In this document: positions 27,121 through 31,464 of the stretch, piece after piece
Layout: each line of letters starts with the position of its first letter
Position numbering within the stretch: the first letter of the stretch is position 1
Assembly (NCBI RefSeq): GCF_016757965.1
Contig: NZ_JAEKIW010000008.1
Span: 62,001-126,000 of the forward strand
DNA length: 64,000 nucleotides
Direction of reading: 5' to 3'
DNA from: Archaeoglobus neptunius
Lineage (GTDB): Archaea > Halobacteriota > Archaeoglobi > Archaeoglobales > Archaeoglobaceae
The notes under the pieces: generated by a model
Seen by the model: the letters and a program-made list of their open reading frames with translations, nothing else
The model's database searches: none
What the model was told of the DNA's origin: nothing
Position numbers and translations under genes: made by a program

Positions 27121-27843
27121 CTAAAATTTTGCAATGAAGTTCTTTACGTTTTCCTCAACTTTGGAATAGTCATACGTGCAGGTTACAACATTTCCTACAG
27201 GCGTGCCCCTGAGCTTTAACGGGTTGAATGGACTTCTACCTCCATAAACTACAAGTGTATCGCATTTGAAGGTCTCTCCTTCAATCTCAACACCCTCTAC
27301 CCTTTCCCTGCCAATAACGTTTATGCTATCCCCCAAACTGCTCAACTCAACCTCGTATCCCATTCTGTAAAACTGGGATTCGGCAAGCTCCACAATTTTG
27401 TCCTCTTTTGCGGCAATCAAAATCTTGTTCCCGATTTTGTTATCTCTGGATACCAGCCTTAGGGCTGTTTCGAGAGTGTATATGCCCGCAACTCTTTTCC
27501 CAAGTACGTTGAGCTTTGCAGGAGCAATATCAGTTGCTCCCGTGCAGAGGAGTACTCTCTTTGCCTCAAACCTCTTCAGTCCATTTCCAGAGTTGACGAT
27601 AACGGGCTTTGATTTTATGACAGTACCGACATCTACGGGGATATCCCTCCTCAGTTCTCTTATCTCCTCAATGTATTTCTCGTATTTCGAGCTGAAGTCG
27701 CTCAGTCTGGAGAATACGCTAATCTCACCTCCTGCTTCCCTCATGTCAAATATCAGTGTTTTGAAACCTCTGTCCATGAGGAGTTCCGCACATTTCAAAC
27801 CTGCATACCCTGCACCTACGACGACGTAGTCAACTGCTACCAT
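27121..27843 (-). CDS. FAD/NAD-binding oxidoreductase, partner of GlpA-like protein
   Basis: The 240-residue flavoprotein begins with the dinucleotide loop VVGAGYAGLKCAE and contains VLLCTGATDIAPAKL, a pyridine nucleotide-disulfide oxidoreductase-like layout, but is shorter than that family (usually above 400). It overlaps the upstream GlpA-like gene by 7 bp. Such pairs resemble GlpA/GlpB or HcnB/HcnC complexes that pass electrons from an alpha-hydroxy substrate to the quinone pool. No redox-active CxxC is seen. Exact activity uncertain. Confidence 0.7.
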   Translation of the reverse strand: MVAVDYVVVGAGYAGLKCAELLMDRGFKTLIFDMREAGGEISVFSRLSDFSSKYEKYIEEIRELRRDIPVDVGTVIKSKPVIVNSGNGLKRFEAKRVLLCTGATDIAPAKLNVLGKRVAGIYTLETALRLVSRDNKIGNKILIAAKEDKIVELAESQFYRMGYEVELSSLGDSINVIGRERVEGVEIEGETFKCDTLVVYGGRSPFNPLKLRGTPVGNVVTCTYDYSKVEENVKNFIAKF

Positions 27844-29201
27844 ATCACTTCACTTCCAGCACTATCTTTTACAACTTTATTACACACTCTCTGCATTAAA
27901 ACTATTATGTCCGCATGACACTTATTGCAACTCATGCCCGCTCTTGTTATGTGCCTTACAGCATCAAAACTGGAAAACTCCTTTGCCACATTGAGAATCT
28001 CAGCCTTGCTGACAAGCTCACAAAGACAAATTACATCGCCATAATCCGGATTAGTCCTGACAATTTCCTCAATCGTGCTCAGATTCAGGTCCTTGAGCCT
28101 GATAAATTTTGGTTTCACCAATCTTTTCTTTTTCTTCATCTCGATACCGCTTGTAACAAGCATTTTTACGATTTTCTTGGCTATGGCTGGGGCTGCGGTC
28201 AGGCCGGGACTCTGAATTCCCGCTACGTTTATGAAGTTCCTGATCGGCTGGTTGATCACAAAGTCCTTCCCCGCAATTGATCTCACGCCGGCATAGTAGG
28301 CGATAACGTCTTCGGGCATCTTCCTGAAAAGTTTTCCAAACTTCCTTTTAAGCCCATCCACCTCCTCTTTTCTCACGGCTGTATCCTCTTTGTCGGAGGT
28401 ATCGATCAAATTCGGTCCCCATACCGGCTTTCCGTCTATGCTGACCAGAGCTCCTCCACCCTTCGTCCTTCTGTCAGGTTTGAGGGGTATTTCCGCTATC
28501 AGGTGGTGCGCAAACCCTTTGTCGTTAAAAACTATGTGGGAACCCTTTCCAGGGGTGATTGTCATATCATAACCAGCCATTCTCGAGATTTCGTCAGCAT
28601 GCAGTCCGGCACAGTTTATAACGAATTTTGCTTCCTCTAAATCATCATGTTCTGTTTTTAAAATAAAGCTCTTTGTCCTTCTTTTTATTCCTTTTATCCC
28701 GCAGTTAAATCTGAACTCCACTCCGTTAGCCTTCGCAAACCGGTATGCAGCGTATGTCATTTCGACAGGATTAACAACTCCTGCAGAGGGAAAGAACAGA
28801 CCGCCTCTTATCCCGTCAGTCAAATTTGGCTCCATCTGGAGTATCTCATCCCTGTCAAGCTGCCTGACCTCAACGTATCTTGAGAAATAAGCTCTGAGCA
28901 GTGGTAAAATCAATTTTGTAATCGGGTTTGTTGCAACGAGGATCAGACCAACCCTTTTAAAGGAGAAACCGAGTTCCTCAGCCTCCCTGTCCATCATTGC
29001 GTTACCTTCCAGGCACAGCTTGCCTTTGAGCGAGTTAAATGGAAGTTGAAAAGCATGTATAATCCCTGAGCATCCCTTGGTCTGTCCGAGACCCGGAGCA
29101 GCCTTTCTCTCGAATACCACGACTCTTAGGTTGTACTTTGATAGTTCTTTGGCTATAAAGCAACCCGTAACACCTGCCCCTACTATTGCCACGTCGTACA
29201 C
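27837..29201 (-). CDS. glpA: FAD-dependent glycerol-3-phosphate dehydrogenase-like protein with BFD [2Fe-2S] domain
   Basis: A 454-residue protein with FAD loop VGAGVTGCFIAKEL at the N-terminus, the DAO family body (FSAGVVNPVEMTYA-like FPSAGVVNPVEMTYA, GKGSHIVF), and a C-terminal BFD-type domain with VICLCELVS and GMSCNKCHAD (C-x-C and C-x2-C), which binds a [2Fe-2S] cluster. This is the layout of anaerobic glycerol-3-phosphate dehydrogenase subunit A. L-2-hydroxyglutarate or other hydroxyacid oxidases are alternatives. In archaea it could also handle glycerol-1-phosphate-derived pools; that is speculation. Confidence 0.8.
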   Translation of the reverse strand: MYDVAIVGAGVTGCFIAKELSKYNLRVVVFERKAAPGLGQTKGCSGIIHAFQLPFNSLKGKLCLEGNAMMDREAEELGFSFKRVGLILVATNPITKLILPLLRAYFSRYVEVRQLDRDEILQMEPNLTDGIRGGLFFPSAGVVNPVEMTYAAYRFAKANGVEFRFNCGIKGIKRRTKSFILKTEHDDLEEAKFVINCAGLHADEISRMAGYDMTITPGKGSHIVFNDKGFAHHLIAEIPLKPDRRTKGGGALVSIDGKPVWGPNLIDTSDKEDTAVRKEEVDGLKRKFGKLFRKMPEDVIAYYAGVRSIAGKDFVINQPIRNFINVAGIQSPGLTAAPAIAKKIVKMLVTSGIEMKKKKRLVKPKFIRLKDLNLSTIEEIVRTNPDYGDVICLCELVSKAEILNVAKEFSSFDAVRHITRAGMSCNKCHADIIVLMQRVCNKVVKDSAGSEVIW

Positions 29202-29231: not shown

Positions 29232-29996
29232 TTATGGATACTCGACCGACCTCTTTTTAAAATACTCGTAAATGTCGAATCCCCATTCTATGGCGCTCCT
29301 GTCAAAACTTAGAAGACCGCTTTCCGTGTCGTACTTGCCATCACTCAGGAACAGCCCTATACAGAGTGCTTTTTCGGTTGTTATCACCGTGAAATGTATT
29401 TCGTTGTTGTAGTATATTTTTCCACCATTGTTGAGGTACTCATCAAGCTCATTTTTGTAATCCCTTTTTAAGGCGTTGAGAGCCTTTTCTGAAAGTATAA
29501 CTTCCACATCAGACCGTGAGGATATATCCACGAACATCCGGGGATGGGTGGGAAAGAAGACGGTGGATAGAATTCTTACTATGTTCGATTCGCTGTATAT
29601 TGAGGAAAAAACCTTGAAATGTTTCAAAACAACGTCTTTGGTACTTCTCAAAATCTGATAGTCTCCGAGCTCATCAATTCTGAGTTTAAACTCGTCAGGT
29701 ATACTGCTGAAATCGTGGATTTTCCAGAATTCAGGATCTTTCTCAATTGCAGAAACGATCCTTCTGAATTTCTCAATAGCAAGATAGGCAATCTCGCCCA
29801 TGTCAGTGATTGAATAACAGTTACCGTCTTTACTGATCAAACCCAGCTCGCTCAATTTTTTAAGCTGCCTCGAAATTACCGGTGGAGAAATGCCGGTAAT
29901 CTCGCCCATTTCCTTCAGGGATCTGGGACTTTTTGAAAGTACTTCCAGAATCAGTCTTCGGTGTTTTGACGAGGTAAGGGAGTCAAATAAACCCAT
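29232..29996 (-). CDS. Winged-helix transcriptional regulator with FilR1-type ligand domain (DUF1724)
   Basis: A 254-residue protein with an N-terminal ArsR/MarR-like winged helix (SLKEMGEITGISPPVISRQLKKLSELGLI, about residues 26-54). A C-terminal domain resembling the methanogenesis-regulator (FilR1 middle/DUF1724) group follows, with VEVILSEKAL and ITTEKALCIGLFLSDGKYD near the end. It faces a divergent Cys-rich gene across a 177-bp spacer holding four evenly spaced palindromes, its most likely binding sites. The domain could sense a small molecule; none is predicted here. Confidence 0.82.
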   Translation of the reverse strand: MGLFDSLTSSKHRRLILEVLSKSPRSLKEMGEITGISPPVISRQLKKLSELGLISKDGNCYSITDMGEIAYLAIEKFRRIVSAIEKDPEFWKIHDFSSIPDEFKLRIDELGDYQILRSTKDVVLKHFKVFSSIYSESNIVRILSTVFFPTHPRMFVDISSRSDVEVILSEKALNALKRDYKNELDEYLNNGGKIYYNNEIHFTVITTEKALCIGLFLSDGKYDTESGLLSFDRSAIEWGFDIYEYFKKRSVEYP

Positions 29997-30041
29997 ACTA
30001 TTTCGAGGAATTTGAATAAGTTAAAATTTTCTGAATTAATT

Positions 30042-30118
30042 TTAACCTAGTGAGTCAATTTTTAACTTTTAAAGTCAATAACTGACATTTGAAGTCAAAA
30101 AATAACTCTTAAAGTTAA
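30042..30118. repeat. Array of four 17-bp palindromic operator-like sites, exact 20-bp period
   Basis: Sites at 30042, 30062, 30082 and 30102 read TTAACCTAGTGAGTCAA, TTAACTTTTAAAGTCAA, CTGACATTTGAAGTCAA and ATAACTCTTAAAGTTAA. All follow TTRACT-N5-AGTYAA symmetry, and starts are exactly 20 bp apart, so every site faces a similar side of the helix. A weaker fifth half-match lies at 30022. The array is between the regulator gene (-) and the Cys-rich gene (+), between their likely TATA boxes. Confidence 0.7.
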
Positions 30119-30144
30119 AAATTTTATTAAAACAAATAAAAAAA

Positions 30145-30154
30145 ATTTTTATAT
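30145..30154 (+). promoter_or_regulatory. TATA box of the Cys-rich gene
   Basis: TTTTTATATC is centred about 25 bp upstream of the ATG at 30174 and 27 bp downstream of the last palindrome. The spacing supports a leaderless mRNA starting at that ATG. Confidence 0.5.
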
Positions 30155-30173: not shown

Positions 30174-30668
30174 ATGATATGGGAGTGTAAAATGTGCTCC
30201 CTAGACGGGAATATAGAGCCTGAAATTGTTTTTGAACCGGTTAAACTTGAGCCCTCCGAAATTGAGAGTTTTTTTGGTGACAAAAATACAAGAAAAGTGC
30301 TCAACATGTTGAAAAGCAACCATTCTGATTTTGATAAATTTAAAGGCAGGCTTTTTCTGAGCGATGCAGGGGTGATTGCTCTCGGCCATCTGGAGGATGT
30401 CAAAAACGGGAGGGTCATAGTTCTGGTAAAGATAGTTGGAAAGAATTCGGTGATTTACGAGGTAAATTCAGATGCAACTTTCAGGGTCTTTTTTTCCAGC
30501 GGGGATGACGTACTCGTTCATGAGATTAAGATTGACTTCCTCTATTTGTGCTTCAGAAATCATCAGTGCAGTGGAGTTTGCTGGGCCGTGCCGCTTTATA
30601 TACTGGTTCCGGAGCTTTATCCCGAGGTCTGCAGAGATGAAGAATGTGTGGTAACCTCGACTGCATGA
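30174..30668 (+). CDS. Cysteine-rich protein of unknown function
   Basis: A 164-residue protein I do not recognise. Cysteines cluster at the ends: WECKMC at the N-terminus, and LCFRNHQCSGVCWAV and EVCRDEECV in the last 45 residues, enough to bind a metal or Fe-S cluster. The middle is a mixed alpha/beta region with no known motif. The leaderless ATG at 30174 is preferred over an upstream TTG because of the TATA box. It is divergent from the winged-helix regulator and most likely its main target. An Mrp-type Fe-S carrier follows 31 bp later. Confidence 0.6.
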   Translation: MIWECKMCSLDGNIEPEIVFEPVKLEPSEIESFFGDKNTRKVLNMLKSNHSDFDKFKGRLFLSDAGVIALGHLEDVKNGRVIVLVKIVGKNSVIYEVNSDATFRVFFSSGDDVLVHEIKIDFLYLCFRNHQCSGVCWAVPLYILVPELYPEVCRDEECVVTSTA

Positions 30669-30699: not shown

Positions 30700-31464
30700 A
30701 TGCAGAAAAGGGTTAGCGATGCGGATATAAAGGAAAGACTGGAGAAAATAAAGTTCAGAATTGCCGTGATGAGCGGCAAGGGTGGTGTTGGCAAATCAAC
30801 GGTCACGGCACTGCTTGCCCTGCATTATGCCAGGAAGGGAAAGAAGGTTGGAATTCTGGATGCGGACTTTCTCGGCCCGAGTATACCCATACTTTTCGGG
30901 CTGGAGAAAGGGAGGGTATCGGTCAGTGAAGATGGGCTTGAGCCGGTTTTAACACAGAGATACGAAATCAGGGTGATGTCGATGCAGTTTCTGCTCCCCA
31001 AAAGAGAGACACCCGTAATATGGAGGGGGCCGCTGATTGCGGGGATGATAAGGGAGTTTCTGGGTAGGGTTGCGTGGGGCGAGCTTGATTACCTTCTGGT
31101 AGACCTCCCACCCGGGACAGGAGATGCCCCGCTTACAGTCATGCAGGATGCAAAGCCCAATGGTGCGCTGATTGTATCCACACCGCAGGAGTTAACTGCA
31201 TCTGTTGTTGAAAAAGCGATAATGATGGCAGAAGAGACAAAAACAGCGGTACTTGGAATAGTGGAGAACATGAGTTATTTTGAATGTCCCAACTGCGGTC
31301 ACAGGTCGTACATTTTTGGAGAGGGGAAAGCATCAGAGCTTGCAAGAAAATATAAAATAGAGTTCATTTCGGAAATACCCATAGATTCAGAACTTCTCCG
31401 CCTCTCTGATCTGGGAAGGATTGAGGATTACGAGATGGACTGGTTTGAGTATTTCCCCTACTGA
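30700..31464 (+). CDS. Mrp/NBP35-family P-loop ATPase (Fe-S cluster carrier)
   Basis: A 254-residue ATPase with the deviant Walker A MSGKGGVGKST (about residues 24-34), DADFLGPSIPILFGL, the LLVDLPPGTGDAPLT motif, and a C-terminal C-x2-C (FECPNCGHRSYIF) that bridges a [4Fe-4S] cluster between two subunits. It delivers clusters to apoproteins. A TATA-like GGTTTAAAAAG (about 30668-30678) suits a leaderless start at 30700. It overlaps the convergent decarboxylase gene by 7 bp. Confidence 0.9.
   Translation: MQKRVSDADIKERLEKIKFRIAVMSGKGGVGKSTVTALLALHYARKGKKVGILDADFLGPSIPILFGLEKGRVSVSEDGLEPVLTQRYEIRVMSMQFLLPKRETPVIWRGPLIAGMIREFLGRVAWGELDYLLVDLPPGTGDAPLTVMQDAKPNGALIVSTPQELTASVVEKAIMMAEETKTAVLGIVENMSYFECPNCGHRSYIFGEGKASELARKYKIEFISEIPIDSELLRLSDLGRIEDYEMDWFEYFPY

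Follow-up and report, generated by a model that had tools for sequence, protein, structure and literature searches.

The Methanosarcina Msr regulators, which we take to be members of PF08350, and FilR1 of Methanosaeta belong by name and domain (FilR1_middle, PF08350) to the same general class as a regulator encoded in the window, the stretch of 64,000 nucleotides of the Archaeoglobus neptunius genome that was analysed here. Msr regulators mostly enhance and sometimes repress the expression of their targets (PMC3960522), and the FilR1 paper mentions no motif or palindrome (PMC3991700). Unlike the locus described below, both act on methanogenesis genes. In the literature searched, no described operator of a FilR1/PF08350 regulator was found, though relatives of these proteins are frequent in the order.

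Tandem operators have been described for other archaeal regulators. In the Lrp family, the dimers of Ss-LrpB and Ptr2 cooperate on several dyads whose centres are two or three helical turns apart; autoregulation occurs, and activators use sites just upstream of the BRE/TATA box (PMC2995911). The present array resembles these operators in its regularly spaced dyads and its place just upstream of a BRE, and differs from them in the adjoining regulator (FilR1/PF08350), in its four units at 20 bp and in being common to two divergent genes. Likewise, the dyad TGGACA-N8-TGTCCA of the Thermococcus activator Tar (TK0271) is located upstream of BRE/TATA (PMC6737238), as are the dyads of the array, whereas a four-unit phased array is absent from the Tar system and its target genes are unrelated. 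The array is a well-conserved new example of a known operator type.

The tandem array and two putative promoters

The array consists of four 17-bp dyads between two divergent genes, and the surrounding features in the window are as follows.

29232 to 29996, minus strand: FilR1-type regulator gene (winged HTH and FilR1_middle, PF08350), candidate binder of the array
30017 to 30029, minus strand: putative TATA region of the regulator gene, AAATTTTAACTTA, a weak box proposed from its sequence and alignment position
30042 to 30058: predicted operator unit 1, TTAACC-TAGTG-AGTCAA, with a counterpart in all six relatives
30062 to 30078: predicted operator unit 2, TTAACT-TTTAA-AGTCAA, the sole exact match to TTRACT-N5-AGTYAA
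30082 to 30098: predicted operator unit 3, CTGACA-TTTGA-AGTCAA
30102 to 30118: predicted operator unit 4, ATAACT-CTTAA-AGTTAA, the unit nearest the promoter of the Cys-rich gene
30134 to 30154, plus strand: BRE-like A-rich stretch and TATA box (TTTTTATAT at 30146 to 30154) of the Cys-rich gene, from the alignment of six spacers
30174 to 30668, plus strand: gene of an orphan Cys-rich protein, the probable regulated gene
30700 to 31464, plus strand: gene of an Mrp/NUBPL-type iron-sulfur carrier ATPase (PF10609), 31 bp behind the Cys-rich gene

An earlier, sequence-only reading had placed the dyads at 30042, 30062, 30082 and 30102 without drift in their spacing, and these coordinates proved exact. 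When periods from 14 to 30 were tried, the four-unit score peaked at period 20 with 45/48, whereas the highest score among 1000 dinucleotide-shuffled spacers was 35. The consensus of that reading, TTRACT-N5-AGTYAA, holds for unit 2 and is missed by one, two and one mismatches in units 1, 3 and 4. TTnAC-N7-GTnAA, the core derived from 28 units of the genus, describes the motif better. Single sites with up to two mismatches to the consensus are not enriched in the 64 kb (6 found, 9.3 expected); it is the ordered array that is unusual, not the isolated site. The weaker fifth match that had been proposed 20 bp further left (about 30022) is not a site, as its 7/12 is at chance level and the equivalent place in relatives reaches 6 to 8 without conservation. 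A different unit, the dyad across the 3-bp gap (RGTYAA-N3-TTRACY), was rejected because in the window's own genome the outermost dyads at either end of the array are of the N5 type and lack a further half-site beyond them to pair with.

The dyads recur at one fixed interval close to a whole number of turns, as expected of a tandem operator array. From the equal spacing near two turns, binding along one DNA face had been concluded; the constant 20 bp stands, and the single face applies only approximately, since 20 bp correspond to 1.9 turns at 10.5 bp/turn and each dimer would be turned by about -34 degrees relative to the one before. A contact strictly on one face would need overwound DNA (10.0 bp/turn) or flexible contacts.

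In the window, 27 nt separate the right edge of the array from the Cys-rich TATA box, and its left edge comes within about 12 bp of the weaker, putative TATA region serving the regulator, which itself is found about 21 to 33 nt upstream of the regulator's ATG. The former box is part of a conserved CAAATAAAAAAA-TTTTTATA block in the alignment of six spacers, and a promoter role of 30134 to 30154 is suggested by the archaeal consensus. The ATG follows about 20 nt behind this TATA box, which makes a leaderless mRNA probable; in relatives, the Cys-rich gene starts at the ATG equivalent to 30174.

The regulator is well assigned, with 79.7 bits for FilR1_middle (PF08350, cut-off 27) over residues 128-249 and an N-terminal winged HTH matching PF01022 (41.1 bits, cut-off 22) and PF25213 (45.7 bits, cut-off 35). 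The Cys-rich protein has no match in Pfam or NCBIfam, its structure model (pLDDT 54) gave no usable fold match, and a scan of the contigs of its genome revealed no relative. To judge from the 31-bp gap, the mrp gene is probably co-transcribed with it as an operon; the two genes also adjoin in the A. fulgidus-like genome G001, and not in G050, a genome of another genus. The G001 copy of the Cys-rich gene (L064:4954-5361) is frameshifted near the C-terminus relative to its congeners and has lost the last two cysteines, which is either real or a sequencing error. Behind the regulator and on its strand, the window encodes a GlpA-like FAD oxidoreductase and a small FAD protein (27121-29201), the former with a BFD-type [2Fe-2S] domain (27837-29201); in G001, the large FAD oxidoreductase is not located between the regulator and the small FAD gene. 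The main texts of A. fulgidus transcriptome papers do not mention the presumed locus tags.

Conservation in the genus Archaeoglobus

The conservation of the spacing in related genomes, on which the sequence-only reading had staked its claim, was examined, and 57 genomes of the order were searched for pairs of consecutive units, at most three mismatches being allowed. The array was found in seven of the eight genomes of the genus, where the reversed control pattern gave no match. These seven, the window's own genome (G000, 2.1 Mb) and six other congeners, are those with the locus, and all of them feature the array with period 20. In each of six spacers, 20 was the best period and its score was reached by none of 1000 shuffles. 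Spacing and half-sites are thus kept in the orthologous promoters of six further genomes, and so is the placement between the two promoters that had been proposed for the window, with the reservation that these species comparisons are not independent, as they concern one genus and four of the genomes are close relatives.

Conservation is concentrated in the half-sites. All 28 units agree at positions 2, 4 and 14, and nearly all at positions 5, 13, 16 and 17; these seven core positions are 93-100% identical between species, compared with 35-75% for the inner 5-bp linker. Unit 4 is the most degenerate across species (mean 9/12). The clearest array is that of G006, with ATAACC-N5-GGTTAA, twice TTAACC-N5-GGTTAA and finally ATAACC-N5-TATTAA. 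Moreover, the distances to both genes hardly change: across species, 44-51 nt separate the regulator's ATG from the array, and in all seven genomes 23-27 nt lie between the array and the Cys-rich TATA box. What does vary is the count of clear units, which is three in G002. Such a variable unit number at fixed distances is the behaviour expected of an operator tied to two promoters.

In G002, the regulator and the Cys-rich gene are situated at the ends of two contigs (C43:1-21 and C46:1-21; L096 and L097), both of which carry the 21-bp end TGTATAGTCC... This end occurs at 14 places in G002, where control matches were absent, and, exactly or nearly so, in three other congeners tested. On both sides of the break, 15 bp (GGTCAACAATTAACC) are duplicated. 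As such a duplication is the mark of an insertion sequence, the array of G002 appears to have been split by one. Read as an empty site, the G002 spacer features three good units, the last of them 25 nt from the TATA box.

Candidate binder and proposed regulation

The set of genomes with regulator orthologues (counted at E < 1e-70) is identical to the set with the Cys-rich protein: 8/57 genomes of the order, namely the seven of the genus and G050. The two genes are neighbours in each of these except the split G002. The Cys-rich family has no further relative in 393 genomes of the phylum, and FilR1-type relatives of the regulator are present in 33/57 genomes of the order. G050 harbours the nearest homologue of the regulator outside the genus, with 48% identity and the same neighbour gene; its spacer features neither an array nor a significant period, so the gene pair can exist without the array. 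The recognition helix reads PPPVALKHLKK in G050, compared with variants of SPPLISRHLKK in the genus. The assignment of the array to the divergent regulator, for which the earlier reading had relied on adjacency, is strengthened by the shared set of genomes and by the absence of the array where this helix is changed. Adjacency, the identical phyletic pattern and the restriction of the array to regulator-bearing genomes together point to the divergent FilR1-type protein, and the array is very probably its docking array.

In the model that we infer, which covers the binder, the cooperativity, the sign of regulation and the signal, the array is likely to be a cooperative operator of the divergent regulator, serving autoregulation as well as control, probably activation, of the Cys-rich operon. 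Four regulator dimers would sit on the four 17-bp dyads, 20 bp apart and with neighbours touching, and would fill them together over a narrow concentration range. The occupied array would recruit TBP/TFB to the Cys-rich/mrp operon, and its close left edge would limit the regulator's own transcription, for which repression is no less likely than activation. For the operon, activation is favoured by analogy with archaeal activators sited just upstream of the BRE: in all seven genomes, the array is located directly upstream of the BRE/TATA box of the Cys-rich gene without overlapping it. Binding, cooperativity and the sign of regulation are directly testable here, given a specific motif (TTnAC-N7-GTnAA), a constant architecture, one array interrupted in nature by an insertion sequence, and another promoter that bears an array.

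The same operator might act with the opposite sign, the regulator repressing both divergent genes by a filament of four dimers which, until released by a signal, would block TBP/TFB or RNA polymerase. Divergent pairs of regulator and target with a common operator are often repressed and the array is near both core promoters, but the Cys-rich TATA box is left free in every species, 23-27 nt beyond the last unit. The site of the repressor TrmB, by contrast, coincides with the BRE/TATA box (PMC4158304). Repression of both genes is the less probable sign, and a somewhat unlikely one.

A doubtful alternative is binding by another protein, e.g., the heat-shock regulator HSR1 of A. fulgidus, whose operator is CTAAC-N5-GTTAG. 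It comes from the same group of organisms and has the half-site TAAC/GTTA in common with the array; besides, adjacency alone proves no binding, and paralogues of the FilR1 type exist in the same genomes. Nevertheless, the HSR1 half-sites are separated by an inner N5 and not, as in the array, by N7, a difference of 2 bp, and in five genomes tested the motif is absent from the spacer and present at separate loci. With both motif and loci differing, HSR1 was rejected as the binder. The array, moreover, is confined to regulator-bearing genomes, where it is found at the regulator's own promoter and one other kind of target, which argues for the divergent regulator against any other protein. The CTAAC-N5-GTTAG dyads away from the array in five congeners (G000:C4:81812 and 90499, G001:C1:1159837 and others, L116-L122) are consistent with a distinct heat-shock operator.

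That the repeat plays no part in regulation and is a by-product of tandem duplication, slippage or low complexity in AT-rich DNA is highly improbable, since, for all the AT-richness of the spacer and the likeness of adjacent units, the linkers within and between units have diverged around a core that is kept across species, with three positions invariant in every unit, and dinucleotide-preserving shuffles never reach the array score.

Array copies before secreted-protein genes

The genome scan for further copies, which had been suggested along with the array, revealed convincing arrays outside the spacer only in promoters of secreted-protein genes among the 57 genomes. Two-unit matches were obtained in G002:C5, G003:C13 and G006:C8, besides three isolated weak ones in other genera; with a 37-position profile, another copy emerged in G006 (C41), and G000 and G001 yielded no further convincing match. 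Single profile matches in G000:C1, G004:C64 and G005:C18 were taken as chance, since their E values are 0.01-0.14 and they fall inside coding regions or at their ends. All convincing extra arrays precede genes of one family of about 386 aa with a signal-peptide-like N-terminus. Three congeners and G038 encode this family, in multiple copies and with changing gene surroundings, the copies being the following.

L061:3545-4705, L062, L093, L060:2634-3605, L071 and L074: genes of the secreted-protein family, only some of them preceded by the array

The family is without Pfam matches or known relatives, and the model of one protein is beta-rich (pLDDT 69) without a significant PDB match. The spacing before its genes is looser than in the divergent spacer: its copy in G002:C5 is preceded by four units with a spacing of 20/19/20, ending directly before a TATA-like box, and the promoters in G003 and G006 feature clear units at 20 bp with one further unit 26 bp away. 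The same kind of array before this gene in three genomes indicates a small regulon of one to three promoters. In G000, the family was not found, and the array there appears to serve one spacer only. Two protein families annotated without a function, the Cys-rich and the secreted one, gain in this way a candidate common regulator. It is conceivable, though rather improbable, that the array forms an all-or-none switch, in which a phased filament of four dimers, common to two divergent promoters and laid on DNA near 10.0 bp/turn in the hyperthermophile, would control the lineage-specific orphan Cys-rich protein and the mobile secreted beta-rich family.

The order's remaining FilR1-type genes are not preceded by any period-20 array that exceeds chance. 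A repeat of period 26, exceeding all 200 shuffles, is located upstream of a distant FilR1-type gene (L040) and could be another operator array.
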